A DNA stretch of 64,000 nt from an uncultured Clostridia bacterium (lineage in GTDB: Bacteria > Bacillota > Clostridia > Christensenellales > Pumilibacteraceae), in NCBI GenBank assembly GCA_944363615.1, contig CALVUQ010000006.1:1-64000 (forward strand). The letters are read 5' to 3'. The translations under genes were made by a program, and so were the position numbers. Below the pieces are notes generated by a model that was not told the DNA's origin, searched no databases, and was given only the letters and a program-made list of their open reading frames with translations. Of the stretch, positions 20,435 through 47,013 are shown in pieces; position 1 is the first letter of the stretch, and every line of letters begins with the position of its first letter.

Positions 20435-20466
20435 AATTACGGTAAGCAAAAATTTAAACTGTATAT

Positions 20467-25831: not shown

Positions 25832-26902
25832 TCAGAATCTGACGGGCAACGGATTTTGAGCATGAAGAGTTTCTATCACGCTGATTATCTTTGCGGCTTT
25901 TTCAGCCGTAACGTACATTTCCCTGCCTTCGGTAATCGCATAAAAAAGGTCTTCGTAAAACAGACTTGTGCCTACGTCGAACGCGGTGCCGTCGTATTTT
26001 CCCTTCTCCTCGTGCACGACGAGTTTTTCACTGCAATACACGGGATTACCGTTCCCGTCTTCTAAAAATCTTTCCACTACGGGACGGACGGGATTTTCGC
26101 CTTCGGCGACGTACTTACACTCGTATTCCTGAGGAGTGCAACGGAAAGTTCCGCGCGTGCCCTGAACTTTCAACGTAAACCCTGGATAAGCGTCGGTATT
26201 GTTGATTTCCACGTCGACTACGGGTTTATGGGGCGCAACGATTATCGCCTTGCAATAGTCGTCCGCGTCGCCCGAAGAAAAAGGCGTGTGGTCAAGGCGG
26301 GAAAACGCTACACGCGCCTCCGAATCGAAGTCCAGTGCACCCAGCGCCATGCCGAACGGATGCGGACCGGTATTATAAGAATTTCCGCCCAGCTTTTTTT
26401 GCAAAGTCTGCCAGTCCCACCTGCGCGAAAGACCGTTGTAACGGATATCTATCTGAAGCGGTTTGCCCACCTTGTTTTCGTTAAGCACTTGCAAAAAATC
26501 GCGGTAAAAGGGCGCGTAAAACGTCTGCTGAAACACGGCAAGCAAAACGCCGCGCTCCTTTGCAAGACGGATAAGAGAATCACATTCAAATCGGGTACGC
26601 GCAAAAGGCTTTTCTACCAACACGTTAAAGCCGTGCTCCAAAAGCGTTTTCGTTACGGGAGCGTGAAGGTCGGAATAAGTACAGTTTACTGTTAGATCCG
26701 CCTTTTTAGTCAAAAGCTCCTTCACGTCGGACAGAATTTCCGCATCGGGATAAAGCTTTTCAGAAATTTCTCTTCGCCGCGCGTCCTCCTCCACGACGAA
26801 AGCCACGTCATAAAAAGCGTTATCGGCGGAAAGATAATACTTTCCGTGAATGTCTTTGCCGCTTCTTCCCTGCCCGACGATTGCCAATTTCAATTTTTTC
26901 AT
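25832..26902 (-). CDS. Gfo/Idh/MocA family oxidoreductase
   Basis: A 356-residue NAD(P)-dependent sugar-type dehydrogenase. Seen: Rossmann start LKLAIVGQGRSGKDIHG, the catalytic-lysine motif VEKPFART, and the C-terminal alpha/beta domain with KLGGNSYNTGPHPFG, which holds the expected substrate histidine. Enzymes of this family oxidise or reduce hydroxyls of sugars, inositols and glycosides. ATG with GGAGG. It is divergent from the AraC regulator with a 145-bp shared control region, so it is the likely regulated target. First of three members of this family in the region. Confidence 0.88.
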   Translation of the reverse strand: MKKLKLAIVGQGRSGKDIHGKYYLSADNAFYDVAFVVEEDARRREISEKLYPDAEILSDVKELLTKKADLTVNCTYSDLHAPVTKTLLEHGFNVLVEKPFARTRFECDSLIRLAKERGVLLAVFQQTFYAPFYRDFLQVLNENKVGKPLQIDIRYNGLSRRWDWQTLQKKLGGNSYNTGPHPFGMALGALDFDSEARVAFSRLDHTPFSSGDADDYCKAIIVAPHKPVVDVEINNTDAYPGFTLKVQGTRGTFRCTPQEYECKYVAEGENPVRPVVERFLEDGNGNPVYCSEKLVVHEEKGKYDGTAFDVGTSLFYEDLFYAITEGREMYVTAEKAAKIISVIETLHAQNPLPVRF

Positions 26903-26950
26903 GTTATTCCTCCGTATCGGAATTGATTTTAAGATATTTTTTTATATATA

Positions 26951-26973
26951 AATATTTAATAACCGAATATTTA
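26951..26973. promoter_or_regulatory. Direct repeat in the AraC divergent control region
   Basis: AATATTTA occurs at 26951 and 26966, 15 bp apart in the same orientation, about 24 bp upstream of the AraC promoter. AraC-family proteins bind direct repeats, so it is a candidate operator. Confidence 0.35.
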
Positions 26974-26996
26974 TTAACATTAGTGCTCTGCAACTC

Positions 26997-27026
26997 TTGA
27001 CACCTTAAATTAAGTACTGCTAAAAT
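26997..27026 (+). promoter_or_regulatory. Promoter of the AraC-family regulator
   Basis: Perfect TTGACA, 18 bp, TAAAAT, 21 bp before the ATG. Confidence 0.65.
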
Positions 27027-27047
27027 AAGACCGGTTGGGGGTTAAAT

Positions 27048-27857
27048 ATGGAAAACGAAATAAAGGACGAATTTTCACAGGAATTTCCCGAAGGCTTAAA
27101 ATACGACTATAAATATTACCGCTCTTCGTCGGTGTTTTTTCCTGCGCATTCGCATAACGCATACGAACTTATTTTCATAATCCGCGGCGACGCGTCGTAC
27201 GTCATTGAAGACAGAGAATACAAACTTAACAATTACGATCTTGTAATCACAAGTCCCCGAAAGCATCATTACATACGTCTGGATTCGCCTTGCGACTATG
27301 AGCGTTTCGACGTGCTGATAGCTCCCGCGCACCCGCTTGCGGATATATTGAAAGATTTACCCGATTCGTCCGAGGTAGTACATTGCTTAACAAATAAGGT
27401 AATTACGGAAAACTTCAACAAAATTAAATTGTATTACAGACAGTTTTCCGAAGAAATCTGTTATAAACTTATCACTTCGCTGCTGACCGAAATCCTTTAC
27501 AACGTATCCGCCAGCGAAAACGAACTTTTTGCTTCTTCTCAGATTGTTTCACCGCTGATCCGAAAAGCGCTTGCTTATATAAACGCGCATCTTTTTACGA
27601 TAAAAAACATATCGGAAATCTGCAACGAACTGTTTATAGCAAAAAACTATTTCTTCCGCCTTTTCAAAAGTACTTTGAAAGTATCTCCCAAAAAATACAT
27701 TCTCGACAAACGTCTTCTTTACGCGCAGGGGCTTTTGTCAAGCGGCGAAAAACCCACTGCGGTTTACCGTGAATGCGGTTTTTCAAATTATGTGTCCTTT
27801 TACAAAAGCTACGTTGCGCTTTTCGGACACTCGCCCTCCTCTGAAAATAAACGCTGA
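27048..27857 (+). CDS. AraC family transcriptional regulator
   Basis: A 269-residue regulator with an N-terminal cupin-like sensor domain (FFPAHSHNAYELIFIIRG, about residues 25-110, carrying the usual H-x-H/E ligand-pocket pattern) and a C-terminal double helix-turn-helix of the AraC/XylS type (residues ~168-265, with ISEICNELFIAKNYFFRLFK and VYRECGFSNYVSFYKSYVALFG). It likely senses a sugar and controls the divergent Gfo/Idh/MocA gene and perhaps the convergent nag operon, whose stop codon is only three bases from its own. ATG preceded by GGGGG. Confidence 0.92.
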   Translation: MENEIKDEFSQEFPEGLKYDYKYYRSSSVFFPAHSHNAYELIFIIRGDASYVIEDREYKLNNYDLVITSPRKHHYIRLDSPCDYERFDVLIAPAHPLADILKDLPDSSEVVHCLTNKVITENFNKIKLYYRQFSEEICYKLITSLLTEILYNVSASENELFASSQIVSPLIRKALAYINAHLFTIKNISEICNELFIAKNYFFRLFKSTLKVSPKKYILDKRLLYAQGLLSSGEKPTAVYRECGFSNYVSFYKSYVALFGHSPSSENKR

Positions 27858-27860
27858 AAT

Positions 27861-29012
27861 TTAAAAATTATGCCTTCTCCCGTCCGTAAACACCTCGCGG
27901 ACGGTTATTTTATCGTCGAAAACGACTATGTCCGCGTCGAATCCGCACCTTATAACTCCCTTTTTAACGTTAAGTATACGGGCAGGAACTTCGGTCAGCA
28001 TTTTCACCGCGCCTACAACCGACTCCGAACATTTGCTTACAAGGGTACGCACGAGAATTTCGGCTGTCGCAACGCTGCCCGCAAAAGCCGAACGGTCCTT
28101 TAACTTACAGACGCCGTCTTCCACAATAAAGGGCGTACCGCTCATGACGCCTTCCTTTATGTCGGTACCGGCTATGGCAAGGCTGTCGGTGACAAGCGCT
28201 ACCCTGTCCCTGCCTTTCACTTTCAGTATCATTTTTATAAGCTCGGGCGGAAGATGAACGCCGTCGGCAATGATTTCCACGCTGAGTTCGTCGCGCAAAA
28301 ACGCCGTTTCGATAACTCCCGGGCGACGGTATCCGTGTACGCGCGTAACGGTAGACGTACACGAATAAAGATGAGTGACAAGGCTGCAACCGTTTTTTAC
28401 GGCGATAACCGCATCCTCGTAAGTTGCGTCCGTATGTCCCATAGACGCTATTATGCCGTGCTCCGAAACGTATTTGCAGAAAGCGCCGCCTTTATCGCAT
28501 TCCGGAGCGTAAGTCCACCTGGCGATCGCTTTGGGAAAATCGGATATAAGCGAAGCATATTGACGTTTATCGGGTTTAATTATGAAATCGGGACACTGAG
28601 CGCCGCATTGCGCGGAAGATAAATACGGACCTTCGAGATGCGCGCCGGCAATAATTTTCGGCAACTTTTTACTTTTCATGGCTGCGTCTATATTTTCCAC
28701 GGCGGAACGCATGGCTGAAAACGGACCGGCCGAAACGGTGGGAAGTATAGTAGTCGTTCCGTGTCGCAGATGGAAAAGGCAGCCCTTTACGACCTCCTCT
28801 TCACTGCTGAAGGTAAAGGCGTAACCGCCCCCGCCGTGCGTATGAAGGTCGATAAACCCGGGAGAAACGTATAATCCCGTAAAGTCGTACTCCTCGTCGC
28901 ACTTTGCCCCTTCCTTTCGGGTTATATCGGCAATTTTACCTTTGTCAAGGTATAAAAATCCGTCCGTTAAACCTTTTTCGGTTATTATTCTGTCGCTTTT
29001 TATTTTAATCAT
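27861..29012 (-). CDS. nagA: N-acetylglucosamine-6-phosphate deacetylase
   Basis: Metal-dependent amidohydrolase, 383 residues, converting GlcNAc-6-P to GlcN-6-P and acetate. Seen: metal motif HTHGGGGYAF, the substrate motif GAHLEGPYLS, metal histidines in SMGHTDATYEDA and VTHLYSCTS, the substrate-recognition loop ADGVHLPPELI and the catalytic aspartate in LVTDSLAIAG. The usual HLYNAM is HLYSCT here. Start ATG lies six bases after the nagB stop without a strong ribosome site, indicating coupling. Last gene of the four-gene operon, and the clearest indication that the locus handles N-acetylated amino sugars. Confidence 0.93.
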   Translation of the reverse strand: MIKIKSDRIITEKGLTDGFLYLDKGKIADITRKEGAKCDEEYDFTGLYVSPGFIDLHTHGGGGYAFTFSSEEEVVKGCLFHLRHGTTTILPTVSAGPFSAMRSAVENIDAAMKSKKLPKIIAGAHLEGPYLSSAQCGAQCPDFIIKPDKRQYASLISDFPKAIARWTYAPECDKGGAFCKYVSEHGIIASMGHTDATYEDAVIAVKNGCSLVTHLYSCTSTVTRVHGYRRPGVIETAFLRDELSVEIIADGVHLPPELIKMILKVKGRDRVALVTDSLAIAGTDIKEGVMSGTPFIVEDGVCKLKDRSAFAGSVATAEILVRTLVSKCSESVVGAVKMLTEVPARILNVKKGVIRCGFDADIVVFDDKITVREVFTDGRRHNF

Positions 29013-29018
29013 AGTAGA

Positions 29019-29783
29019 TTAAAGAAGCGAAGAGCTGTCGCCGTCGAGATAAAGCACCGCATGGTCGGCAAGGCGCAGCACGCTGGCAGGACAACCTGTG
29101 CCGATTTTACCCTTAAGGCATTCCTTTACCGCTTTGGCCTTTGTTTTTGCGGGTACTACGCAAAACAACCACGGCGCGGAAACAAGCGTAGGAACAGTAA
29201 GCGTTATCGCGTACTTTGGCACGTCTTCAAGCCTTAGAAAACAACCGTCGTGCACCTGCTGGTTTCGGCATACTTCATCCAGCTTTACGACTTTGACGCC
29301 GCGCTTATCGGCAAAGTCCGCAACGGGCGGATCGTTAAAAGCAATATGACCGTTTTCGCCTATTCCCATTACTACGATATCGGGCGGATTGTTTTTCAGA
29401 AGATTTTCGTATCGCTCCGCTTCCTTTTCGGGATCAACGGCCGCGCAATCGATATAATTAACCGACTTAAAATTTACCTTACCGAAAATGTGTGCTTTCA
29501 AAAAATTTCCGAACCCTTGAGGAGCGCTTTCGCTAAGCCCGATATACTCGTCCATATGGAAGCCGTTTATGCGGTTCCATTCGATTTCGCCGTCATCAGC
29601 CAAAGCATCAAGCACCTCGTTCTGCGACGGAGCAGCGGCGAAAATCATGTTTATTTCGTCCTTTTTCTTCAGAAGTTCCGCGATTTTTTCCTTGATTTCC
29701 TTTGCGGCGGTCTGTCCCATAAGCGTACGGTTCGGAAAAATTTTTACGCTTAGTTTGTCAACGGTCATCTGTTTGATATTCAT
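29019..29783 (-). CDS. nagB: Glucosamine-6-phosphate deaminase
   Basis: Aldose-ketose isomerase/deaminase, 254 residues, turning GlcN-6-P into fructose-6-P and ammonia. Seen: phosphate loop FAAAPSQNEVLDAL, the catalytic aspartate motif GFHMDEYIGL, GIGENGHIAFNDPP with the catalytic histidine, and VPTLVSAPWLFCVV. ATG overlaps the stop of the upstream isomerase gene (ATGA), so translation is coupled. Together with nagA it delivers amino sugars to glycolysis. Confidence 0.93.
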   Translation of the reverse strand: MNIKQMTVDKLSVKIFPNRTLMGQTAAKEIKEKIAELLKKKDEINMIFAAAPSQNEVLDALADDGEIEWNRINGFHMDEYIGLSESAPQGFGNFLKAHIFGKVNFKSVNYIDCAAVDPEKEAERYENLLKNNPPDIVVMGIGENGHIAFNDPPVADFADKRGVKVVKLDEVCRNQQVHDGCFLRLEDVPKYAITLTVPTLVSAPWLFCVVPAKTKAKAVKECLKGKIGTGCPASVLRLADHAVLYLDGDSSSLL

Positions 29784-30607
29784 AACAATTCGCTTAAACG
29801 GTTTACTGCGTCCGTAAAAGCTTCCTCCTTGTTCTTATATTTATAAGGATTGTCAAAGCTTTTGCCCACAAGCGCGTTAAAACCCGAAAACGTCTGCAAA
29901 TGCGGCTCAAGCGTAATAAAGACATTATTTTCTTTGCGGTTTCTGTAGTCGTGAAGAATTTCTTTTATCTTCGCCTCACCTTTCCCGGGCGGCACGACGG
30001 CGCCCGTCTTAAGCGCGTCTTTAACGTGAAAATAATCTATTCTGTCGCGTAACAGCAAGTATGCGTCCCATGCGTCGTATCCGTCCAGCACAAAGTTACC
30101 CATATCGAAAACGCAACCTATTTTGCCACCGAAAAACCTGAGAATGTCAAGACAGTTTTCGGGACTTTCGCCGTAAATGTTTGCTTCGTTTTCGTGGCAG
30201 GGCAATATGCCGTATTTTTCACCTAAGGCAGCTACGGGTTCAAGCGCGGCGAACGTTTTGTCGCGACGACGGCTTTTATCTGTATCGTGCGAATAAAAGC
30301 TGAATATCCTTACATATTTTGCGCCTAATATCGTTGCCGCGGAAAAAACCCTTTCCTCAAGAATCGGATCGGCTTGCTCCGGCAAAGTTTTCCCTATGGG
30401 CGAACCGACGGAAGATACTTTAAGACCGTAAGAGTCAAGCATTTTACGCACCTTTACAGCGTCGGATTCGGTGAAAAGCGAAACGTTTTTTCCGTCGGCG
30501 TGGCGGATTTCCATGTAGCGTATCCCGAATTTTTTAAGAGCCTGACACTGTTTTTCCAACCCGTCGGCATATTCGTCTGAAAACGCAGACAAAATCAATT
30601 CCGCCAT
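29780..30607 (-). CDS. Sugar phosphate isomerase/epimerase family TIM-barrel protein
   Basis: A 275-residue AP-endonuclease-2-like TIM barrel. Seen: LSAFSDEYADG at the start, metal-ligand regions PCHENEANIYGE, CVFDMGNFVLDG, YFHVKDAL and the C-terminal ITLEPHLQ. The family includes sugar epimerases, inosose dehydratases and the lyase subunits acting on 3-keto-glycosides. ATG preceded by GGGGAGG; the gene overlaps the stop of the preceding dehydrogenase (TAATG) and the start of nagB. Its tight linkage with a Gfo/Idh/MocA dehydrogenase suggests it acts on the oxidised sugar. Confidence 0.85.
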   Translation of the reverse strand: MAELILSAFSDEYADGLEKQCQALKKFGIRYMEIRHADGKNVSLFTESDAVKVRKMLDSYGLKVSSVGSPIGKTLPEQADPILEERVFSAATILGAKYVRIFSFYSHDTDKSRRRDKTFAALEPVAALGEKYGILPCHENEANIYGESPENCLDILRFFGGKIGCVFDMGNFVLDGYDAWDAYLLLRDRIDYFHVKDALKTGAVVPPGKGEAKIKEILHDYRNRKENNVFITLEPHLQTFSGFNALVGKSFDNPYKYKNKEEAFTDAVNRLSELL

Positions 30608-31485
30608 TAAATAACAACCTCCCCGACAGATTCCTCTTTACCGCTTATCATGGCGCGGTTCAATGCGTTCATTACGAACACTGGCGCGGCAAGCTCCTTA
30701 AAGTCGTATTTTTGTTCTTCCCCGCACAACATATTATAAAACTCGTCGAATTCTTTCATAAAACAGGGATTAACACCGTCCACCGTAAACGCGCCGCCCT
30801 TATCTGCCTTTTCGGAGCATAACAGCGCGTAATAGTTGTCGTACCGCTCGTCAGCGTACAGTCCCGAAACTGCAAAGTCTTTATAAACGAAAAGCGCGCT
30901 TAACGACTCGGCAAGCCGAACCAAGGAAACTTTTTCGGGATATCGTCCGAATATTTCCCCTACCGTATCCACAAGGTGCTGTGCGTAAAAAAAGAAACCG
31001 CCGTGAGGACTGTTCAAACTTATCGGACAACGCACGAAGCCGCCTAAAGTCCTGCCGTTGCTTCCCTCTATTCTTGTTTTACGAAGCGATTGCACCGTGG
31101 CGTCAAATTTTAACGAAGACCCCCCGCACACCTTTGCCCCTGCGCTTTTGGCGCTGCGCAAAAAGGCGACGGTGTCCTCTTCGGAAACGGTAAAAGGTTT
31201 ATCCATGAACACAGATATACCTTTTCTCAAATACGGCTCGGCAAACAAGCGATGATATTTCCCGTGCCTGGCGGTGACAATAACGCCTTCCGCTTCACCG
31301 ACTCCGTCGTCGAAATTTTTCATAGCCTTTACGCCGTATCTTGCGACCAATTTATCCATTGCCGCGGCATCGTAACTGAACACGCCCGTTACGTCCACGT
31401 CCGAATACTTTTTATTGCTTGAGATAAACCTTAAAAACATATCGGCATGTGAATTTTCACACCCCAGTATAACCACTTTTTTCAT
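30607..31485 (-). CDS. Gfo/Idh/MocA family oxidoreductase (short form)
   Basis: A 292-residue NAD(P)-dependent dehydrogenase. Seen: KKVVILGCENSHADMFLRF instead of the strict GxGxxG, then FMDKPFTVSE with the catalytic lysine, and a shortened C-terminal domain with FVRCPISLNSPHGGFFFYAQHLVD containing the substrate-site histidines. First gene of the dehydrogenase-isomerase-nagB-nagA operon; ATG with GAGGGGAG. The substrate is unknown; the operon suggests an amino-sugar or its glycoside. Confidence 0.82.
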   Translation of the reverse strand: MKKVVILGCENSHADMFLRFISSNKKYSDVDVTGVFSYDAAAMDKLVARYGVKAMKNFDDGVGEAEGVIVTARHGKYHRLFAEPYLRKGISVFMDKPFTVSEEDTVAFLRSAKSAGAKVCGGSSLKFDATVQSLRKTRIEGSNGRTLGGFVRCPISLNSPHGGFFFYAQHLVDTVGEIFGRYPEKVSLVRLAESLSALFVYKDFAVSGLYADERYDNYYALLCSEKADKGGAFTVDGVNPCFMKEFDEFYNMLCGEEQKYDFKELAAPVFVMNALNRAMISGKEESVGEVVI

Positions 31486-31586
31486 TGTTTCTCCCCTCTT
31501 CTTAACGCGAGTTTATCGCTTAAAATAAATTTGCGTTACGGATTTTTTGTTGCAAAATTGTTTTATAAAAAATAATTATATGATTT

Positions 31587-31615
31587 ATTATATAATGCAT
31601 TTCAGTAAAAGTAAA
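31587..31615 (-). promoter_or_regulatory. Probable promoter of the dehydrogenase-isomerase-nagB-nagA operon
   Basis: Minus strand TTTACT, 17 bp, perfect TATAAT. Confidence 0.55.
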
Positions 31616-31852
31616 TAGCAATAACTAACCTGAATATTAATAAAAATAACTTATTACTTTTACTTGTCGCCATGCATAATCATAAAGAAAGTGAAAATTA
31701 CTGCCGTGGCAAAACAGCGTTCCAACGATTTTTATTTTAAGAAAGCAGAGAGTTTATTCCGTAAAAAATTTAATCTTCACGCAGAAATAAAACATAAAAA
31801 ACGGAAAAACAACCGAATTATTTTACCGAATCTACGGCATTTTATAATAGAA

Positions 31853-31880
31853 AAAAGACACCCTGAACAAGGTGCCTTTT
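31853..31880 (-). terminator. Terminator of the large glycan operon
   Basis: AAAAGACACC / GGTGCCTTTT stem (one mismatch, 8-base loop) 10 bp past the last gene, followed by T-run in minus direction. Confidence 0.75.
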
Positions 31881-31890
31881 AAATCAAAAA

Positions 31891-32964
31891 TCAAAGTTTT
31901 ACGGGTTTTCCTTCGTAAATACTGCGATATGCCGCATCGATTATCGCTATTGTATTGCGGTGCCGCTCAAGCGTTATCGTAGGAGGCGCTCCGTTACGGA
32001 CGGCGTCCGCAAAATCGTCTATACTGCCGCCGTAACCGTATCTGTGCCCGCAACCGAAAGAAGTATAATTATGATTAGGCAGCCCCGTATGGTTAATCCA
32101 GTTTCCGTAAGAATCGCCTATTATGTAACCGTCGGAACCGAAAACCGAAAGATTTACCTCCACCCGTTTGGGATACTGCTCCCACCCGTCGGCAATTATT
32201 TTCGCGGGATTTTCCGTCCTTGAATAAGAAGGATCAAGCGAAAAAGTAATGCCCTTTTTAGTGATTCCGGTAACAAATGCGAAATCCTCGACCTCGGAAT
32301 TACGTATATTCGGGGCGGTTTCGGCGTAAACTTCGACCACCTCGTCGTCAAGCAACCAGCGCAGCATATCGAAAATATGCGGATGATCGGTAAGACAGCC
32401 GCCGCGGCATATTTTGCTTCCGGGTTTTATGGGAACGCGTTTACCGTAACTTTCCTCCGGCAGTCCGTGCCAGGGAAGCCACCACATGGGATTGTGAGAA
32501 GTGTTTGTAGCGATGAAAGACGTGACTTTACCTACTTTACCGCCTTCAATCAGCTCCTTTACTCTGTAAGGCGTAGCGTGATAGTGCATTTCAAGTTCCA
32601 CGCATACGATGCTTTTGCTCTTTTTCTTAAGCGACAGAATTTCATCGTATTCGTTTAAGTCCAGCGTAGGAATCTTCATGGAAAGAATATGTATATTTCT
32701 TTCAAAACAAAGCTTGAATTGCTTTAAATGATACCAGTTGGCGCTTGCCATAATAACCGCTTCGATTTCGGGATGAGCGTCAAGCATTTTCTCATCGTCG
32801 TCGTATTGATCAACGCCTTCCAGTTTTTCTATGAAAATCCTGTCGTGATAGCCCGGCGCGACGGATATGGCGCGAAGGTCGAACCGCGGGTCGTTCTTTA
32901 TTCCGTAATAGCCCCTGGCGTGTCCGTGATTACAGGACATGATTGCGACTTTAATCGGCTCCAT
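31891..32964 (-). CDS. Gfo/Idh/MocA family oxidoreductase with altered EKP motif
   Basis: A 357-residue dehydrogenase-like protein. It opens with VAIMSCNHGHARGYYG where others have GxGxxG, and the EKP motif is MKIPTL, keeping only the lysine and proline. The C-terminal domain has WWLPWHG and a histidine-rich GCLTDHPHIFDMLRWL segment typical of the substrate site. The ATG at 32964, three bases after the preceding stop and with GGGGAGG upstream, is preferred to an ATG ten codons earlier. Last gene of the large glycan operon. Could be a true oxidoreductase or a member using a tightly bound cofactor. Confidence 0.82.
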   Translation of the reverse strand: MEPIKVAIMSCNHGHARGYYGIKNDPRFDLRAISVAPGYHDRIFIEKLEGVDQYDDDEKMLDAHPEIEAVIMASANWYHLKQFKLCFERNIHILSMKIPTLDLNEYDEILSLKKKSKSIVCVELEMHYHATPYRVKELIEGGKVGKVTSFIATNTSHNPMWWLPWHGLPEESYGKRVPIKPGSKICRGGCLTDHPHIFDMLRWLLDDEVVEVYAETAPNIRNSEVEDFAFVTGITKKGITFSLDPSYSRTENPAKIIADGWEQYPKRVEVNLSVFGSDGYIIGDSYGNWINHTGLPNHNYTSFGCGHRYGYGGSIDDFADAVRNGAPPTITLERHRNTIAIIDAAYRSIYEGKPVKL

Positions 32965-32966
32965 AG

Positions 32967-33671
32967 TTAAAAATCCTCCCCTTTTACCACACATTTGCCG
33001 ACGTTTTTTAATGCGACGTCTACAACCCTGTCCAGTCTTTCCGCCGTAGCCGAATCCTTTAAGGCATCGCCATGTGTGATCACTGCATAAATTGCCACTG
33101 CTTCGTCCGCGTCGGAGGGAGCAAGCCCGTAAAGCGCATAATTGCTGTCCGTAAAATACTCGTAGCCGCTTGCAGTGTATACGTTCAGCGCCTGTTGCGG
33201 AATAACCGTATCGACAGAACGGTTTGATATCATCCCTTGAGTGTTGAAAAACTCGTGTTTGAACAAATTGTCGCCGAAGCCAGCAGCGTGCAGACTTACG
33301 CTTAATGCGGCGTCGTTTTCAAACTTTGCCGTTACGTTTGCCGAATTTCCCGATCTGAACACCGTTACTTTATTAACTTCGCTGCAGAAACAGTTTTCGG
33401 CGATAAGAAGCTCACGGAACAGTAACGCGTCCAATGCAGCGTTATCCACCGAATAACCCGTCATGGCGCAAGGCCGGCCCAGAATTTCACGCTTTAAGGT
33501 AAGCCCGAGAATTTTAGGATGCTCCAGAAAGGAAAACAAAGGCGCGCTTTTCCCGTTCCACTTTATAATCTTATATCTTTTTCCCTGCAGTATTTCGTAA
33601 TCGGGCAGAACTTGTTTTCTCAAAGCGAAAAGCTTTTTTACGCCCTCTTCAACCGTATATACTTTTTCCAT
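32967..33671 (-). CDS. Unknown protein resembling a stand-alone Gfo/Idh/MocA C-terminal domain
   Basis: A 234-residue cytoplasmic protein I do not recognise by name. Residues ~105-150 (ANVTAKFENDAALSVSL and HEFFNTQGMISN) look like the open-faced sheet of the Gfo/Idh/MocA C-terminal domain, where F.ng....l and ..GtkG.i are usual; no Rossmann nucleotide fold precedes it. Start ATG shares a base with the preceding stop (TAATG) and has GAAGGAG. It is encoded directly before a complete Gfo/Idh/MocA gene, so it may form a heteromer with that enzyme. This is inference from pattern only. Confidence 0.55.
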   Translation of the reverse strand: MEKVYTVEEGVKKLFALRKQVLPDYEILQGKRYKIIKWNGKSAPLFSFLEHPKILGLTLKREILGRPCAMTGYSVDNAALDALLFRELLIAENCFCSEVNKVTVFRSGNSANVTAKFENDAALSVSLHAAGFGDNLFKHEFFNTQGMISNRSVDTVIPQQALNVYTASGYEYFTDSNYALYGLAPSDADEAVAIYAVITHGDALKDSATAERLDRVVDVALKNVGKCVVKGEDF

Positions 33672-35593
33672 TAAAGATCTCCTTCGTCCCCGAATTGCAA
33701 GCTGAAAATATCACACACGGAATAAAAGCTGTCAAAAGTATTGAACCAGACCCTGATATCTTTTTTCCGTCCCGTTTCCCTTATTACCTTAACCTCTTCA
33801 TATAGCTCCTGCCTGTCGAATAAATAATGATGAAAAGCAAGTTTACAATAACGATAAAACAAACTTTCCACATCAAGACGCGTTTTATATTTTTCATATT
33901 CGTCTTGGGCGGATTCTTCCAGCGGCAAAAGCGCAGCATATCCTTTAGCGAATATTTTTTCGGTTTCTTTCACGAACTCTACGGGGAAGTATTTCTTCTT
34001 TTTGCCCACGGCGAAATGAGAGTGCGCTTTATACCCGAATTCAACGTTTGCCCACTTATAGTGAGCGGTAAGAAATGCTATATACTCCCTGATTGCGTCG
34101 CCCGCTTTTCCGTAATAAACGTCAATGAATTTGTCGGCAAGCTTAAAATATTCCTGGTCCGCGTCCCATAGCATGCGCGACCTTACCCAGTTATCCATTG
34201 TTATGAAAGGTGTCCCGCCGCTGGTCCTGCATCCCTGATGGAAAACGTCGGTGACTCCCATGTCGCGGTATATCCTTATGTTGTCCTGTGCGGACATCCA
34301 TTGCGGGAACGGCGCGTTTATCGAAGCAAAATCCACGCGATAATCCCATACCGCAAAGTTTTTGGCTACTGTTTTCCAACCGTTTATGGCGTTATACGAA
34401 TTAGGATTTTCCTTTTCGTCAAGCAACGAAAACATATAGTAATCGCCTATGGGTGCGTACCTTATGACTATGTTGTCCCTTGCAACCACCGACGGGTCGA
34501 CGGGCGTCCAGACGGGTTTACCGTTTTCGTCCGTGCTTTTCACCGTAGGCGGATCCACTATGGACATGTATGCAAACGTCGTAAGATATATTTCCCTCTC
34601 GGGACAGTTCTGAAGCCGCCACTTCTCCACCTCATCCGCAACCGCGTTTGCAAACCTCAGGGCTACGCCCGAACGGCCGTATTTTTTAACGTCCGCGGTG
34701 CATTGATCGCAACTGCAGAAAACCGAGTTGTCGCTCATGCCCAGCTGGAAAAACGATTTGTCCGTTTCCACGGCGATATAGTTGTTTATGAGATTGTAGA
34801 CGAACGTCCAGAACATTCCGTGCGGAGCCGAAGCGCTGTTATAACCCGCTTCGCTCCAGTCGCCTTTTTCGTATTCGTCCTTAGAGTACAGCGCTTTTGT
34901 ATAGCATATCTGAGGATTGGTAGCCCCGCTGCCGCCTTCGCCGCCGACGTACCAATCGGGATGAGAAGCGCGGTAAACGTCGTAAGGAATTATCTGAAGC
35001 GCCAGAGACTGGTCGTGAAGCGACGCCCACCAAGACCCCTCTCCGTACTTTTTGTCGCCGTTTCTTACCGCAGACCCCGACAAATAAAGCTTGATGTGGT
35101 TTTCAGGGTTTTGCAACGTATCAAAGTTGAACACGTCGCGGTTTTTAAAGTCGGGAAAATCTGTTACGTCCAGACTTCTTTTTACGAGTTTATCGCAGTA
35201 CTCCTCTTCGTCGGGTGCGTAATACATATATCCGAGGTTAAGCTCTAGATATCTTTGAACTGCGTAAATCAAACCCGTTTCTCCCGAGGAAACTATAAAT
35301 ACGTCGTCGCCGTCGCTTTTTATCCTGAACCCGTGGCGTGTGACCTCCTTACGAGTAACGGCAATCCCTTTTTCTCTGCTTAAAAAGTTATCCCCGAGAG
35401 AAATAACGGGACCGTATTTTTTTGTTACCACAGGCATAACCGCGCCTGTTGCCTTTTCAGTTATCCGAGAAAGCTCCTGCGCGGCATACAATACCGATGG
35501 AACAGCGTTTTCCGAAATCAATATCGAATAATCGGTTTTACCTTTTTCGGCGATGGCGCCGTCCGATTTTCCCAACAAAAATTTTCTTTGCAT
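33671..35593 (-). CDS. DUF4838 domain protein, cytoplasmic paralogue (glycosidase-like)
   Basis: A 640-residue protein with two parts: residues ~20-150 resemble the alpha/beta GH67N/GH20b-type N-terminal domain that precedes many hexosaminidase-like barrels, and ~150-600 is the DUF4838 TIM-barrel-like domain with GMSDNSVFCSCDQC, a candidate active-site and metal/cysteine segment. There is no signal peptide, unlike its paralogue, so it should act inside the cell. Residues 187-382 are almost identical to the neighbour while the rest is about half identical. Start ATG with AGGAGG. By family a putative carbohydrate-active enzyme; the activity is not established. Confidence 0.78.
   Translation of the reverse strand: MQRKFLLGKSDGAIAEKGKTDYSILISENAVPSVLYAAQELSRITEKATGAVMPVVTKKYGPVISLGDNFLSREKGIAVTRKEVTRHGFRIKSDGDDVFIVSSGETGLIYAVQRYLELNLGYMYYAPDEEEYCDKLVKRSLDVTDFPDFKNRDVFNFDTLQNPENHIKLYLSGSAVRNGDKKYGEGSWWASLHDQSLALQIIPYDVYRASHPDWYVGGEGGSGATNPQICYTKALYSKDEYEKGDWSEAGYNSASAPHGMFWTFVYNLINNYIAVETDKSFFQLGMSDNSVFCSCDQCTADVKKYGRSGVALRFANAVADEVEKWRLQNCPEREIYLTTFAYMSIVDPPTVKSTDENGKPVWTPVDPSVVARDNIVIRYAPIGDYYMFSLLDEKENPNSYNAINGWKTVAKNFAVWDYRVDFASINAPFPQWMSAQDNIRIYRDMGVTDVFHQGCRTSGGTPFITMDNWVRSRMLWDADQEYFKLADKFIDVYYGKAGDAIREYIAFLTAHYKWANVEFGYKAHSHFAVGKKKKYFPVEFVKETEKIFAKGYAALLPLEESAQDEYEKYKTRLDVESLFYRYCKLAFHHYLFDRQELYEEVKVIRETGRKKDIRVWFNTFDSFYSVCDIFSLQFGDEGDL
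34448..35034. repeat. Near-identical tract, copy 1 (gene conversion)
   Basis: 587 bp inside the cytoplasmic DUF4838 gene that match 36382-36968 with only four mismatches (at 34937, 34938, 34940 and 35006); the first 489 bp are identical without interruption. Flanking sequence drops abruptly to ordinary paralogue divergence. Confidence 0.95.
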
Positions 35594-35625: not shown

Positions 35626-37677
35626 TTAAAGCGCCGATCTGAACCCTTCGATAATTTCTTCCATTCCGCCGAAAGTATCCATTCCGAGAATTCCCGCTTT
35701 TTCCACTATGCCTGCAAATTCGTCGACAAAAACTCTCAACTCGTCTTTGGTATAAAAAGACTGATACAATGCAAGCTGAAGATATCTGTAAGGTACGGAC
35801 TCTACGTCCACACGGAATTTAAGAAGCTCATACCTTTCGGGGTCGGAATCCTTTTTTTGCTCGATCGCCGCATACGCACGGCTGAATATTTCATCTACGT
35901 TAAGCATGTATCCGCGCGGGAAATTCTTGGTATTTATGTATGCTTCGTGAGAGTGCGCCTTCCATCCGAATTCCTTGTTGAGATAATTCATGTAGTGTAA
36001 TGTGGTATATTCAAGATATTCTTCCATCATTGGCGCGGCTTCGTCATAATAAACGCTTATCGCTTCATGCATAAGGCTGCGATAATCCTCGTTGACGTTC
36101 CACAAAAGTCTTGAACGCACATAATTGTCTATCGTAACAAACGAAGTGTTGCCGAAAGTGCGGCAGCCTTGATGAAAAACGTCTATATAGCCGTAATCGT
36201 AATATGCTTTAATATTGTCGTAAGCGGACATCCACTGCGGGAAAGGCGCAAGCATCTCAACGAAATTTATGCGATAATCCCATACCGCAAAGTTTGTTGC
36301 AACCGCTTTCCAGCCGTTCATGGCGTTATACGAAGCAATGTTGTTTTTCTCGTCAAGAAGCGGATAAAGGTAATAATCGCTTATGGGTGCGTACCTTATG
36401 ACTATGTTGTCCCTTGCAACCACCGACGGGTCGACGGGCGTCCAGACGGGTTTACCGTTTTCGTCCGTGCTTTTCACCGTAGGCGGATCCACTATGGACA
36501 TGTATGCAAACGTCGTAAGATATATTTCCCTCTCGGGACAGTTCTGAAGCCGCCACTTCTCCACCTCATCCGCAACCGCGTTTGCAAACCTCAGGGCTAC
36601 GCCCGAACGGCCGTATTTTTTAACGTCCGCGGTGCATTGATCGCAACTGCAGAAAACCGAGTTGTCGCTCATGCCCAGCTGGAAAAACGATTTGTCCGTT
36701 TCCACGGCGATATAGTTGTTTATGAGATTGTAGACGAACGTCCAGAACATTCCGTGCGGAGCCGAAGCGCTGTTATAACCCGCTTCGCTCCAGTCGCCTT
36801 TTTCGTATTCGTCCTTAGAGTACAGCGCTTTTGTATAGCATATCTGAGGATTGGTAGCCCCGCTGCCGCCCACACCGCCGACGTACCAATCGGGATGAGA
36901 AGCGCGGTAAACGTCGTAAGGAATTATCTGAAGCGCCAGCGACTGGTCGTGAAGCGACGCCCACCAAGTACCCTCGCCGTATTTTCCGCCGCCGGCGGTC
37001 GCGTCGTAACCGTTATTGTAAAGTCTTGCGGCGTTTTGCGGATCCTGCAAAGTATCGTAATTGTAAACGTATCTGTTCAGAAAATCCGGCCAATCTTCGT
37101 ATTTAAAGTTTTTCAGTTTAATACCTGTGGTTTTGTAATCGCCCGTCCTTATCTCGGTAGGAGCGTAATACATATAATCGATCTGCTCTTCCAAAAATCT
37201 GTAGGAGCCGTATAAAATTCCCGAAGTATTGGGCGCGACGATAAGTACGGCGTCCTTATAAGATTCGATACGGAAACCGTTTCTTGTAAGATCGCCTCTT
37301 GTATAAGTAATCCCCGAAGCGTCTGCAATCGAAGTAGCGCCGAGCGAAATAAATTTAGTATTATCGCCTATATCCGTTTCGCTTTCATAAACGACGGGCA
37401 GCATTACGTTTGATGCGTCATAAACGCGTTGCTGGATTTCGCTTGCGGCATATGAATGGGTAGGAGTAAATTCGGCCGGTAAAAGGATGGCATAATCTGT
37501 AGTGCCGTCGGGTTCGGTCAAAAACACGTCGGTGTCCGTAATCGTCTGATTTCTGCCGTTTGCTTTATCGGGAACGTAAGGCGTCTGCTCTTTATTACCG
37601 TTTCCGCAAGAAAACACCGAAACCGACAATATTACCGCAAGAAGCGTGCAGACAATTTTTTTGATTGCATTTTTCAT
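35626..37677 (-). CDS. DUF4838 domain lipoprotein, secreted paralogue (glycosidase-like)
   Basis: A 683-residue homologue of the next gene with a lipoprotein signal peptide (lipobox SVFSC, Cys24), so it is anchored outside the membrane. After a short linker come the GH67N/GH20b-like domain (residues ~60-205) and the DUF4838 barrel (~205-660), again with the SDN...CSCDQC segment. Residues 237-432 are nearly identical to the cytoplasmic copy. Likely a carbohydrate-active enzyme working on a surface-bound or polymer substrate while the paralogue finishes the imported product. Start ATG with AGAGGTG. Confidence 0.82.
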   Translation of the reverse strand: MKNAIKKIVCTLLAVILSVSVFSCGNGNKEQTPYVPDKANGRNQTITDTDVFLTEPDGTTDYAILLPAEFTPTHSYAASEIQQRVYDASNVMLPVVYESETDIGDNTKFISLGATSIADASGITYTRGDLTRNGFRIESYKDAVLIVAPNTSGILYGSYRFLEEQIDYMYYAPTEIRTGDYKTTGIKLKNFKYEDWPDFLNRYVYNYDTLQDPQNAARLYNNGYDATAGGGKYGEGTWWASLHDQSLALQIIPYDVYRASHPDWYVGGVGGSGATNPQICYTKALYSKDEYEKGDWSEAGYNSASAPHGMFWTFVYNLINNYIAVETDKSFFQLGMSDNSVFCSCDQCTADVKKYGRSGVALRFANAVADEVEKWRLQNCPEREIYLTTFAYMSIVDPPTVKSTDENGKPVWTPVDPSVVARDNIVIRYAPISDYYLYPLLDEKNNIASYNAMNGWKAVATNFAVWDYRINFVEMLAPFPQWMSAYDNIKAYYDYGYIDVFHQGCRTFGNTSFVTIDNYVRSRLLWNVNEDYRSLMHEAISVYYDEAAPMMEEYLEYTTLHYMNYLNKEFGWKAHSHEAYINTKNFPRGYMLNVDEIFSRAYAAIEQKKDSDPERYELLKFRVDVESVPYRYLQLALYQSFYTKDELRVFVDEFAGIVEKAGILGMDTFGGMEEIIEGFRSAL
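36382..36968. repeat. Near-identical tract, copy 2 (gene conversion)
   Basis: Partner of 34448-35034, in direct orientation 1,934 bp away, inside the lipoprotein DUF4838 gene. Confidence 0.95.
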
Positions 37678-40560: not shown

Positions 40561-41457
40561 TTAACCTTTTAATCCGCCTACGGCAACGGCGCCCATAAGT
40601 TTGTTTCTGAAAGCTATGAACAAAAGCAGAATGGGCAAAACCACCAATGCGCACGCAGCCATAAGATAATTGGTGCCGCTTACCGCATTGACATTGCTGA
40701 ACTGGAAAGCATAAAGTCCGTAAGCCGCCATCGGGAACGAAGGCAGATATATCATGGAAGTCTGCCAGTCATTCCAGATTCCTATAAAAGTCATCAGCGA
40801 CAGCGCCAGAATCGTAACTTTGGCAAGCGGAAGCATTATCGTAAACATAACTCTTGCATGGCTTGCCCCGTCTATAAACGCCGCTTCTGCATATTCCCAT
40901 GAAATGCCTTTGAAAGTCGCGTAAAAAATCAGAAAATTGGTGCCCGTAAACGAAGCTTTCATTATAATAAGTCCTAAAACGTTATCGTAAAAACCGATAT
41001 TGTTCATGAGATTTATCATAGAAGGAAGGTTGCCTACGATGGGAATAATCATGGTGACGATAACCGTACTGTAAAGCACTTTCCCGAAGAAAAACTTATA
41101 TTTTGCAACCACATAAGCCGTCACGCAATGCGACAAAGTAGTAACGAAAGTACAGGCAATCGAATAAACGAACGAATTGAGGAACATTTCCGGAAGATAT
41201 ACGTTGCGCGGGGCTCTTCCGTCTGAATAGCTTACTTTTATGAACATCTTTTCAAAAACGTCTATGTAGTTTCTGAATTCCCAGCCGCCGTGATACTTAC
41301 CCGGAAGTCCGAAAGGATTCAGAATAAAATCGACGCGGGTTTTAAGCGAGGATATGAGAACCCATATAAACGGAACGATAAGCGACAGACAATAAAGGAT
41401 AAGCAACACCAAGAAAAGTACGGCAAAAGGCTGACGCGAAATTTTTTCTTTTACCAT
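40561..41457 (-). CDS. Carbohydrate ABC transporter permease (MalG type)
   Basis: A 298-residue inner permease of the CUT1 sugar importer class: six membrane helices, cytoplasmic N-terminus and the EAA loop EYAEAAFIDGASHARVMFTIMLPLAK, here with residues placed as in MalG (EAA...G.......I..P). C-terminal GGLKG is typical. ATG with GAGGAGG. Works with the MalF-type permease and the binding protein encoded just upstream; an ATPase must come from elsewhere. Confidence 0.93.
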   Translation of the reverse strand: MVKEKISRQPFAVLFLVLLILYCLSLIVPFIWVLISSLKTRVDFILNPFGLPGKYHGGWEFRNYIDVFEKMFIKVSYSDGRAPRNVYLPEMFLNSFVYSIACTFVTTLSHCVTAYVVAKYKFFFGKVLYSTVIVTMIIPIVGNLPSMINLMNNIGFYDNVLGLIIMKASFTGTNFLIFYATFKGISWEYAEAAFIDGASHARVMFTIMLPLAKVTILALSLMTFIGIWNDWQTSMIYLPSFPMAAYGLYAFQFSNVNAVSGTNYLMAACALVVLPILLLFIAFRNKLMGAVAVGGLKG

Positions 41458-41472
41458 GTTTTACCCTCCTCT

Positions 41473-42546
41473 TCAGAATTCCGCATTCGTTCCGAATTTT
41501 TCCAGCAGATATTTCGCAAGCAAAGTTATCGGAGCGACAAACAAAGTAAACAGTAATCCCGCGGCGGACGCAAACGGATAATCCGCAAGCTGAGCAGTAT
41601 CGCCCACAACCTTTACGAACAAATAATATCCGTAAGTATACAAATACTGAGGAGCGTTACCGCCGTAAAAAGTATACAAACCCGCCTGATTGGTGAAAAT
41701 TCCGGCAATACCCGTCACAAGGAAGACCGTAATCGTCGGGAAAATCAACGGAACGGTTATCTTCCAGAATTCCTTCCACATTCCCAACCCCTCGAGTTTT
41801 CCGTATTCGATAAGCGAGTCCGGTATACGGCTCATGGCACCGGTATACAGGATTATTCCGCTGCCCAGTCCGAACCAGATATTGTAAAATATTATTACCG
41901 ACCATGCCGTCTGCTGCGATTTAAACAAATCGGGAACGTTTTGCACACCGAACAAATTAAGCAAAGAAGGCACTGCGCGGTCCACGAAATATTTATACAT
42001 TATCGTCATTACTACACTGGACACAATACTGGGTACGTAAAGAAAGATCTTAAACATACCCGAAAGCGGTATCTTTTTGTACACGAAAAAGGAACTCATT
42101 ATATGCAGCGGCATACAGATAAACAAGCCTATGGCATACAGAATAAAAGAGTTCTTTGTCGCAAACTGCAAAGTAAAATCCGTACCTATCTGTCTGATAA
42201 ACTCTTTAAAATGCCCGAATCCTATAAAATGATATTCGCCTGTGGCAATGTCGTACTGTTTGAACGCAAGCAATATGGAGTTTATGTTGACGCCGATATA
42301 GAAAACGCAGAACTGTATTACGGGAATTATAAGCACGCAGAACAAAAACAGATTCTTTGCAAAATTTTTACTTTTAGCCGATCTTATTTTTTTCTTCCTG
42401 TTCTTTTTAAGATTGTACAGCCTTACGGATAAATTGTAAAAGAATAATTTAATCGCTCTGCCGACTTTCCCCATTCGTTCGGAAATTTTTTCCTTTACGG
42501 TCGCTTTTTTCTCTAAATCCGGATTCAAATTTTTTGATTTTCTCAT
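41473..42546 (-). CDS. Sugar ABC transporter permease (MalF type) with basic N-terminal extension
   Basis: A 357-residue CUT1 permease. Residues 1-65 are an unusual lysine/arginine-rich cytoplasmic extension; then six helices, with the EAA-like loop LIEYGKLEGLGMWKEFWKI and VPLIFPT. It forms the heterodimeric channel with the MalG-type permease. ATG preceded by GAGGGATAAATA; genes are 15-24 bp apart in this block, indicating one transcript. Confidence 0.92.
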   Translation of the reverse strand: MRKSKNLNPDLEKKATVKEKISERMGKVGRAIKLFFYNLSVRLYNLKKNRKKKIRSAKSKNFAKNLFLFCVLIIPVIQFCVFYIGVNINSILLAFKQYDIATGEYHFIGFGHFKEFIRQIGTDFTLQFATKNSFILYAIGLFICMPLHIMSSFFVYKKIPLSGMFKIFLYVPSIVSSVVMTIMYKYFVDRAVPSLLNLFGVQNVPDLFKSQQTAWSVIIFYNIWFGLGSGIILYTGAMSRIPDSLIEYGKLEGLGMWKEFWKITVPLIFPTITVFLVTGIAGIFTNQAGLYTFYGGNAPQYLYTYGYYLFVKVVGDTAQLADYPFASAAGLLFTLFVAPITLLAKYLLEKFGTNAEF

Positions 42547-42570
42547 TATTTATCCCTCGGGACCTGTTCT

Positions 42571-44190
42571 TCAGTTGCCAACCGCTATTTTACTCAGCCA
42601 CACTTCTTCGCTCATGGTTTCCCTTAACGCGGTCATGTATTCGTCAACGGTAAGTGTCGGATAAGTTCTGAAATTTCCTATAGGATCGGACAGAGTTTTA
42701 CCGTCCCTTGTGTTGGCCTTCCATTTCCAGTCGCTCTCAAAAAACTGCTCGTTTTTATAAATATAGGGATTGGCGCAGGTATGATAAACTATATCGCTGT
42801 TACCGCCGAACGCACCCCAAAGCGACTGATAATAATCGGGCATTGCGGCAAGCTGCTCGTCTTTCATTTCGTAATCGAGCGCTCTGGGCATACCGGAATA
42901 CTGAGTGCACATCTGAAGCGCTTCGTCAGACTGAAGATATGCAAAGAATTTTTTTGCACCTTCGGCTTCTTTTGCGTTCTTTTTCACGAAAACCGAAGTA
43001 TAGAACGAAGAAGCAAAATATGTAGCTTTAGTCGCCGGAGAGCCTTCATACTTCGGGAAAGGCATAATGCCGAACCTTCTGTTGGCATATTCGTCCGACA
43101 TCGCCGCCATATCGTTGAACGTGTCTTTTGCTTCGTTGTACCAATGCGCGCCGTCGATGATAAACGCAACGCGCTTACCAAGTCCCAGACTTTCGTTGAC
43201 TACTGAAAGGAGGTATTCGGATTGCGTCGTCATAAACGACATGGAAGCGGTGCCCGATTGCGAATGATAATAATCGGGATTGTTTGCAAGCGTGTAGGCA
43301 AATTCCAGTGCTTTTTTCCTACCCGTCATATTCATAAGCAGATATGCCTTTTGCGGAGTAATCTTGGTGGGTTCGCTGTCGCCTTCAAACGTGTATTCGC
43401 CTGACATCGTTTTAACGAGGTCGAAATTAGCCTTGCCTTCGTAAGCGGCGTACATAGAATAAATCAGATTACTTGTATAGGACGTCTGGTCGGACCAGAT
43501 GAAAGGCGTTACTCCTTCATTGACCATATAATTGCACAGATTCCAGAACTCGTCAATCGTAACGGGCAAACCGTCATCGTAAGTGCCGGCGATTCCGTCC
43601 TGTCCCACGCTTTTGGGCTGAGTCCCTTCTATTCCCTTGGTCCAGTTGCCCGAAGCGTCATAATAGAAGCCCTTTTTCTCAAAAAGGTCTATATCGTAGG
43701 AAATGCCGTAAATTCCGCCCCCGAAAGGCGCCGCAAAGTATTTGCCGAGGTTGTTGTATCCCTTATAGAATTCGTCGAGATCTTCCCACATCTTATCGGC
43801 GATACTCTCCTCGTCGGAAACGCCTATTCCGAGGTCCTTTAACGGGGTAGTCATTTCGGTCGTGACGTCCATCAGAAGGTCCTGAGAAAGGTAATCGTAT
43901 AGATATACCGGCGCGACGAAAACGTCCTGAGGCAACACGTCTATCGTCCCAAGAAGAGTGGACATGTAATATTTTTTGTCGCCGTCCACCAAGACCTTGT
44001 ATTGAGGATTTTTCTTTTCGAATTCAGCCGCAGCCTTATCCAGCCATTCCTGTCCCCAACCGCCGTTGTAAATACCGACCTGTATAACAATTTTGTCGCC
44101 GTATTGATTGGGTCCTTTCGGTCCGCAACCGACAAACGACCACAGCGCAAGCATTGCCACGATAAAAACAGCCATGAATTTTTTAAGCAT
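42571..44190 (-). CDS. Extracellular sugar-binding lipoprotein of ABC transporter
   Basis: A 539-residue solute-binding protein (CUT1, cluster B). Lipobox SFVGC gives Cys22 as the lipidated residue. Seen: IQVGIYNGGWGQEWLDKAAAEFEKKNP at the start of the mature lobe (only partly quoted motifs: EWLDKAAAEFEK), a central hinge region with ISYDIDLF, and aromatic residues common in sugar sites. Longer than maltose-binding protein, as often seen for oligosaccharide binders. ATG with AAGGAGA. First gene of the transporter block; preceded by a 77-bp gap holding a hairpin. Confidence 0.9.
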   Translation of the reverse strand: MLKKFMAVFIVAMLALWSFVGCGPKGPNQYGDKIVIQVGIYNGGWGQEWLDKAAAEFEKKNPQYKVLVDGDKKYYMSTLLGTIDVLPQDVFVAPVYLYDYLSQDLLMDVTTEMTTPLKDLGIGVSDEESIADKMWEDLDEFYKGYNNLGKYFAAPFGGGIYGISYDIDLFEKKGFYYDASGNWTKGIEGTQPKSVGQDGIAGTYDDGLPVTIDEFWNLCNYMVNEGVTPFIWSDQTSYTSNLIYSMYAAYEGKANFDLVKTMSGEYTFEGDSEPTKITPQKAYLLMNMTGRKKALEFAYTLANNPDYYHSQSGTASMSFMTTQSEYLLSVVNESLGLGKRVAFIIDGAHWYNEAKDTFNDMAAMSDEYANRRFGIMPFPKYEGSPATKATYFASSFYTSVFVKKNAKEAEGAKKFFAYLQSDEALQMCTQYSGMPRALDYEMKDEQLAAMPDYYQSLWGAFGGNSDIVYHTCANPYIYKNEQFFESDWKWKANTRDGKTLSDPIGNFRTYPTLTVDEYMTALRETMSEEVWLSKIAVGN

Positions 44191-47012: not shown

Positions 47013-47013
47013 T

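Follow-up and report, generated by a model that had tools for sequence, protein, structure and literature searches.

A conserved six-gene set that joins sugar-oxidising enzymes to unusual NagA and NagB proteins suggests an undescribed amino-sugar breakdown route in herbivore-gut Clostridia

Why would sugar-oxidising dehydrogenases be encoded side by side with enzymes of amino-sugar catabolism? This question is raised by a 64,000-nucleotide stretch of DNA (positions 1 to 64,000 of contig CALVUQ010000006.1, assembly GCA_944363615.1; hereafter the window) from an uncultured Clostridia bacterium of the Pumilibacteraceae, whose draft genome amounts to 1.8 Mb and is 95% complete. An original prediction, made from the DNA letters and their open reading frames, had suggested here one gene cluster for the oxidative breakdown of N-acetylglucosamine (GlcNAc)-containing substrates through 3-keto sugars, comprising three Gfo/Idh/MocA dehydrogenases, a barrel protein, a small partner-like protein, DUF4838 proteins, an importer and nagB-nagA. 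An open reading frame check recovered all of these genes where they had been placed, and a Pfam scan confirmed their families. As to the single cluster, the Gfo/TIM/NagB/NagA part stood up as a conserved unit, whereas GfoC, the orphan protein P234, the DUF4838 proteins and the importer turned out to belong elsewhere. These genes form two units: a six-gene cassette encoding an AraC-type regulator, the dehydrogenases GfoA and GfoB, a triosephosphate isomerase-type barrel protein (TIM) and the proteins NagB-star and NagA-star, and a DUF4838 operon which ends in GfoC. The cassette, shared by many herbivore-gut Clostridia, suggests an undescribed route of amino-sugar breakdown, and the surprising part of the locus is the altered NagA and NagB pair.

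Conservation of the six-gene cassette

On the minus strand, read 5' to 3', GfoC is followed by a 400-base gap and then by the genes encoding GfoB (30607..31485; a short Gfo/Idh/MocA dehydrogenase of 292 amino acids, PF01408), TIM (29780..30607; a predicted metal-dependent xylose-isomerase-like barrel of 275 amino acids, AP_endonuc_2 PF01261), NagB-star (29019..29783; a NagB-like isomerase/deaminase with a replaced phosphate loop, Glucosamine_iso PF01182) and NagA-star (27861..29012; an amidohydrolase, Amidohydro_1 and TIGR00221, in which THLYSCTST replaces THL[FY]NAM). The AraC-type regulator (27048..27857; HTH_18 and AraC_binding) is encoded on the plus strand, divergently from GfoA, which lies beyond it on the minus strand (25832..26902; a Gfo/Idh/MocA dehydrogenase of 356 amino acids, PF01408/PF02894/PF22725). 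We consider the cassette and the DUF4838 operon as two units and not one because a terminator-like hairpin with a 12-pair stem and a T-rich tail (31880-31853, minus strand) stands directly after GfoC, and because contig C15 carries the DUF4838/P234/GfoC module a second time, without TIM, NagB or NagA. Four terminator-like sites were found in the region, against 0.6 expected. A promoter-like site ahead of GfoB (31587..31615, minus strand; TTTACT-17-TATAAT, 10/12) is one of a class of sites found at a number that is not significant (2 found, 2.3 expected).

Searching the TIM protein against 84,980 GTDB species genomes led to the recovery of 61 loci, many of which lie in genomes labelled as metagenome-assembled genomes from the guts of sheep, goat, deer, cattle, yak and buffalo. 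A NagB gene was present no more than 6 kb from that of TIM in 48 of the 61 loci, NagA in 46, GfoA in 44, GfoB in 43 and AraC in 37, and a clustering of the cassette genes far beyond chance was confirmed. Gene content and order are conserved, the spacing is tight, and the genes are inherited together. The commonest arrangement, a divergent AraC followed by GfoA-GfoB-TIM-NagB-NagA, was seen in 17 loci, and the order of the window itself in three others; the median intergenic gaps are 11, 5.5, -1 and 5 bases, and the pairwise distances of the five proteins are correlated (Spearman 0.62-0.82). In one locus (L060), TIM and NagB-star are joined in a single frame of 543 codons, an arrangement met once, in a draft genome. 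A literature search of titles and abstracts returned no paper describing an AraC-GfoA-GfoB-TIM-NagB-NagA cassette.

The surroundings of the cassette are less constant. Families were assigned in a scan of 148 of the 175 flanking proteins, among which no transporter or kinase was recurrent; extra Gfo proteins were the only family to stand out (11/148), families beyond the 25 listed having at most two members each, so that inferring the substrate from the flanking genes was ruled out. The largest cluster of non-cassette neighbours covers nine loci, four of which are cassette-free outgroup loci. In L082-L086, TIM stands alone and is 38-40% identical, as in an outgroup, and several further TIM loci end at a contig edge.

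Related gene sets were also sought across the phylum, in 398 genomes. In one other family, two genomes (L131 and L133) carry a diverged Gfo-Gfo-TIM-NagB-star-NagA set, whose Gfo and TIM proteins are distant from the cassette profiles (60-112 bits) and whose NagB is close to them (358-363 bits); in L131 the five scores are 60, 78, 112, 358 and 133 bits, in that order. Of the 398 genomes, 8 encode a GfoB-like protein of at least 60 bits, and NagB-star is present in 7 of these 8, against 33 of the 398 overall (Fisher p about 1e-7, with counts taken manually from the match lists and the 60-bit line set after the scores had been seen). As the two genes mostly lie apart in these genomes, the association is one of co-occurrence, not of linkage.

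Some variants of the gene content were noticed besides. A genome of the same family (G407, L225:7563-8620) has the order AraC-GfoA-TIM-Gfo-NagB-GfoB, with NagB-star apparently split over two frames in a draft sequence. Two cassette loci encode a glycyl radical enzyme and its activase after NagA, directly in L088 (2507-5440) and after an extra Gfo in L080 (9454-12521), the two enzymes being 80% identical to each other. The window has in a row a 739-amino-acid glycyl radical enzyme, an aldo/keto reductase and a radical-SAM activase (19655-23615), of which the first is well under the NCBIfam cut-offs (best 225.9 vs 678.2 bits, subfamily model). It was rejected as a shared part of the cassette, being only 27-30% alike to the enzymes of L080 and L088, in the C-terminal part.

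The altered NagA and NagB pair

The NagB of the cassette does not reach the NCBIfam equivalog cut-off TIGR00502 (121.9 vs 236.9 bits). Among the fuller matches in the phylum, the NagB profile scores fall into two groups, NagB-star at 149 bits or more and canonical NagB at 109 bits or less, with one partial NagB-star match at 104.5. We aligned 81 NagB-star rows with 22 canonical rows (E. coli NagB, one protein in L125 and 20 chosen among the best matches of the lower-scoring group), using E. coli numbering. In NagB-star, Asp72 and His143, which we take to be catalytic residues of NagB, are retained in all 81 rows, and position 140 is Glu throughout. The TGxTP phosphate loop is replaced (T41 by Ala in 76/81, G42 by Ala in 77/81, P45 by Gln in 79/81), as is the lid Arg172 (Gly in 80/81), and Glu148 has become Asp (80/81). 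The canonical rows keep the TG of the loop (22/22), Arg172 (21/22) and Lys208 (22/22). In a simulation study of SmuNagB, the 6-phosphate is contacted by Lys194, Thr38, Ser37 and Arg127 and the lid residue is Arg159 (PMC8369159); by our own mapping, Ser37/Thr38, Arg159 and Lys194 correspond to the TGxTP loop, Arg172 and Lys208. The canonical 6-phosphate site made up of these three elements is not complete in NagB-star, in which Lys208 is kept.

NagA-star lies just above its equivalog cut-off (TIGR00221, 227.4 vs 225.65 bits). In all 41 cassette copies the phosphate-binding Asn of the THL[FY]NAM motif, which corresponds to Asn212 of MSNagA (PMC6016474) and Asn235 of AMDHD2 (PMC8970586), is replaced by Ser, and four residues are inserted before the conserved Arg. 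The NagA proteins encoded beside NagB-star elsewhere have THLYSGM-type or THLGNGAH-type motifs instead of THLFNAM, the THLGNGAH type keeping the Asn. This site matters because two NagA enzymes were reported to be inactive on GlcNAc lacking the phosphate (PMC6016474).

These alignments show NagA-star and NagB-star to be distinct subfamilies with remodelled predicted 6-phosphate sites. The changes do not prove that phosphate binding is lost, yet such altered pockets favour a sugar that is unphosphorylated at C6 or differently substituted, and they make GlcNAc-6-phosphate doubtful as the end product. Elsewhere in the phylum (L123-L154), scanning 94 of 151 neighbours of NagB-star gave SIS_2 (7), Gfo (5), ROK (4), URO-D (4), AP_endonuc_2 (4) and TRAP DctM (3) proteins, and no phosphotransferase system (PTS) family was present among the 25 families listed. 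Several genomes with two matches, such as G007, G022 and G066, have NagB-star as well as a canonical NagB.

The oxidising enzymes, the barrel protein and a proposed route

The N-terminal glycine motif, Lys98 and His181 of GfoA were found in 45/45 rows, and Lys96 and His170 of GfoB are invariant (44/44 rows). At the position where we assume the family usually to have Asp, GfoA has Asn177 and GfoB a Phe (44/44). The GfoA profile matched 35 PDB sequences at 1e-10 or below; YvaA/YhhX-type oxidoreductases are at the top, and a glucuronide 3-dehydrogenase and DgpA (7.2e-16) are among the 35. Inositol dehydrogenases and many others were matched too, and with so broad a set of sugar and inositol dehydrogenases the sequence does not decide whether GfoA oxidises a glycoside at C3. 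A GH109 (Gfo-type glycosidase) identity was also considered for GfoA and GfoB and rejected, no GH109 model being among their Pfam and NCBIfam matches. A paper on a GH109 enzyme mentions neither Gfo nor NagA nor NagB (PMC11992087).

The AlphaFold2 (AF2) model of TIM is confident (predicted local distance difference test, pLDDT, 94). Glu139, Asp168, His194 and Glu234, invariant in 59/59 rows, are the putative metal ligands according to the family pattern. The block around Glu139 reads C-H-E-N-E in all 59 rows and not E-P-L-N-R, the beta-5 motif of YcjR, which we take to mark epimerases such as YcjR and D-tagatose 3-epimerase; the active site of a simple epimerase, which would have spoken against the original prediction, was therefore not recognised. 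In the C- and O-glycoside eliminases, a catalytic His stands at the second residue past the beta-5 metal ligand (His134 in AtOGE, His143 in PuCGE; PMC10628242), a position taken in TIM by Glu141 in 59/59 rows. Structural comparison gave Art22 (Z 27.2; also the nearest solved relative by sequence, called an isomerase), UlaE (25.2), an IolE (24.6), the keto-glucal hydratase AtHYD (24.5), AsbF (23.1) and YcjR (23.0). As 962 of the 1000 chains compared reached a Z of at least 8, with mixed chemistries on top, the fold was discarded as a means of choosing between lyase and epimerase. DgpC and C-glycoside eliminase chains are absent among the 50 fold matches listed, which is evidence neither for nor against their likeness.

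The account that we put forward, tentatively and at slightly less than even chances, is that of a self-contained cytosolic catabolic set in which a sugar would be transiently oxidised at C3, processed by TIM, reduced, deacetylated and deaminated. The logic of oxidation, processing and reduction is suggested by the composition of the gene set, and an N-acetylated amino sugar as product by the presence of NagA and NagB. The substrate of GfoA would be an N-acetylated amino sugar within a glycoside or another derivative, oxidised at one of its ring carbons, of which C3 is the most likely. TIM, presumably with its metal, would exploit the acidity beside the new ketone for elimination and/or rehydration, or for re-setting a stereocentre, and GfoB would reduce the keto-sugar back. 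NagA-star would then take off the acetyl group and NagB-star would isomerise and deaminate the amino sugar to a ketose, with AraC turning the cassette on when the substrate is present. In favour of this account stand the conserved gene order, the short gaps and correlated protein distances, the TIM-NagB-star frame of L060, the diverged set of L131 and L133, the co-occurrence of GfoB-like proteins with NagB-star, the levoglucosan-like set around the nearest TIM paralogue of this genome, the PDB matches of GfoA and the likeness of the TIM model to AtHYD, YcjR and AsbF.

Several observations weigh against this account. No NagB is found near TIM in 13 of the 61 loci, and the two halves of the cassette are separable, since six loci (L038, L044, L070, L072, L074 and L076) contain neither NagB nor NagA but still one or both of GfoA and GfoB; in three of these loci the flanks covered 10 kb. 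Both the substrate and the carbon oxidised are read from family resemblance. In the fold search, lyases and hydratases rank no higher than epimerases and isomerases, and TIM has neither the Glu/His-x-His pattern of eliminases nor the E-P-L-N-R of YcjR, so that its chemistry is not fixed. On the side of the phosphate, NagB-star retains Lys208 (80/81) and a Ser at position 44 (81/81) and could still hold it, and a profile search of this genome returned no second NagA or NagB. The genome also encodes a PTS permease and three ROK proteins above cut-off. The SIS_2 proteins which adjoin NagB-star elsewhere in the phylum count against a phosphate-free sugar because SIS proteins commonly bind phosphosugars (PMC12680351).

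An epimerisation is the alternative that survives best, although we hold it to be rather unlikely. Here, GfoA would oxidise an N-acetylhexosamine, for example of the galacto type, TIM would epimerise it beside the ketone and GfoB would reduce it, no glycosidic bond being cleaved, and the resulting GlcNAc-type sugar would pass to NagA-star and NagB-star. It finds support in the annotation of E. coli YcjR and YcjS as a 3-dehydro-guloside 4-epimerase and a glucoside 3-dehydrogenase, in the structural match of YcjR, UlaE and other epimerases to the TIM model at Z 23-25, and in Art22; the beta-5 block C-H-E-N-E of TIM speaks against it.

Doubtful, too, is the most far-reaching form of our own proposal, a phosphorylation-free route in which intracellular N-acetylhexosaminides would be cleaved through oxidation, elimination and reduction, with no hydrolase involved, and in which NagA-star and NagB-star would directly deacetylate and deaminate the N-acetylhexosamine set free, no 6-phosphate being formed at any stage.

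Ordinary catabolism of GlcNAc-6-phosphate, in which NagA-star and NagB-star would grip the phosphate differently while the Gfo and TIM proteins, controlled by the same regulator, would deal with a side substrate or an unrelated one, appears improbable. Such a role is possible because the cassette pair is the only NagA and NagB of this genome and a PTS permease and ROK proteins are encoded elsewhere in it; the score of NagA over TIGR00221 and the Lys208 and Ser44 of NagB-star are in its favour as well. On the other hand, the phosphate sites are altered in both enzymes in nearly every member, NagB-star accompanies a canonical NagB in several genomes, and the fusion of TIM with NagB-star together with the tight co-inheritance argues for a single pathway.

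A route for an N-acetylated amino-cyclitol, with Gfo and TIM acting like IolG and IolE and the product deacetylated and deaminated by NagA-star and NagB-star, is very unlikely despite the inositol dehydrogenases matched by GfoA and the good structural match of IolE (Z 24.6), since the conserved neighbourhood of the cassette includes no further iol-type gene and NagB-type enzymes need a substrate of the aldose/ketose type.

If the proposed catabolic set is real, oxidative sugar breakdown would extend in herbivore-gut Clostridia to amino sugars such as those of chitin, mucin and peptidoglycan fragments, the 3-keto routes of the papers cited here being described there for glucose-type sugars. The widespread NagB-star subfamily may moreover be misnamed as glucosamine-6-phosphate deaminase, with distorted metabolic models as a consequence.

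The adjoining DUF4838 unit and comparison with known systems

The second unit, all on the minus strand, encodes in 5' to 3' order surface proteins, a solute-binding protein and two ATP-binding cassette permeases (40561..44190; PF00528 twice, PF01547 weak), a 950-amino-acid lipoprotein-like protein, DUF4838 protein a (35626..37677; PF16126, with a lipoprotein-like N-terminus in its translation), DUF4838 protein b (33671..35593; PF16126), the orphan P234 (32967..33671; no Pfam or NCBIfam family) and GfoC (31891..32994), a third Gfo/Idh/MocA protein whose N-terminal half matches GFO_IDH_MocA poorly and whose C-terminal domains are clear. On contig C15, a second copy has the surface proteins, solute-binding protein, permeases, lipoprotein, both DUF4838 proteins, P234 (30-31%) and GfoC (48% identical), along with a LacI regulator, a SIS protein and a GDSL esterase. 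Since this copy goes without TIM, NagB and NagA, the importer and the DUF4838 proteins were not taken as part of the nagBA route; they are not assignable to it, and may feed it.

P234 occurs in one of 201 genomes, in two copies (32967-33671 and L176:1501-2208) that both adjoin a DUF4838 module and a GfoC gene. It was rejected as a DgpB-like or Gfo-like partner, having no family, one PDB match at E 0.14 and no homologue in the 200 other related genomes; its AF2 model, built on two sequences, has a pLDDT of 34 and gives no fold claim. Other features of this unit were also recorded. Three large surface-type proteins (37692-40544, 44268-51774 and L018; 950, 914 and 1586 amino acids, the last with Flg_new repeats) recur together with the importer and the DUF4838 proteins in the C15 sister locus, where they are 26-31% identical. 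The SIS_2 protein of the C15 module is of the PRK02947 type. The tandem DUF4838 genes share a 793-base tract (34270-35060 and 36202-36994, minus strand) which is 92.9% identical and contains 489 identical bases, with flanks at about 40-60%, and which reflects either recent gene conversion or a short-read assembly artefact; the C15 pair has no such tract.

Compared with NagA/NagB amino-sugar catabolism, the cassette has the same folds, the same metal and catalytic residues and adjacent genes. It differs in that both 6-phosphate sites are altered, in that no kinase or PTS is conserved beside it and in that NagB is under its equivalog cut-off.

With the C- and O-glycoside eliminases (DgpA with DgpB/DgpC, PuCGE, AtOGE), as outlined in PMC10628242, the cassette shares a C3 oxidase, Gfo or other, and a metal-dependent TIM barrel. 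The specific DgpA/DgpC parallel of the original prediction was not supported. As judged by these two class features, the cassette is not a member of the class, because the catalytic His of the eliminases is Glu141 here and because no DgpB-like small partner gene was conserved in the gene orders and neighbour clusters of the 61 TIM loci. E. coli YcjQ-YcjR-YcjS likewise combines a Gfo dehydrogenase with an AP_endonuc_2 barrel of the same fold (Z 23.0) acting on 3-keto sugars, but has another beta-5 motif, and the ycj cluster contains no amino-sugar genes.

What was supported of the earlier proposal is the conserved joining of dehydrogenase, TIM barrel and NagB/NagA-type enzymes, and the levoglucosan pathway offers a similar composition for the first part. 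In the accounts given in PMC7676230 and PMC10066097, LgdA-LgdB1-(LgdB2)-LgdC carries out C3 oxidation, elimination, hydration and reduction, and one degrader is reported with only lgdA-lgdB1-lgdC, a single-TIM version (PMC10066097). The Lgd enzymes are described there without NagA or NagB and on an anhydroglucose. In this genome, the nearest TIM paralogue belongs to a TIM-TIM-Gfo set beside a GH43 protein, which resembles the LgdB1-LgdB2-Gfo part of levoglucosan breakdown (PMC7676230). The cassette itself, like the levoglucosan set, unites two Gfo/Idh/MocA enzymes and at least one PF01261 protein of about 275 residues, and by composition it appears levoglucosan-like in its logic of oxidation and reduction.

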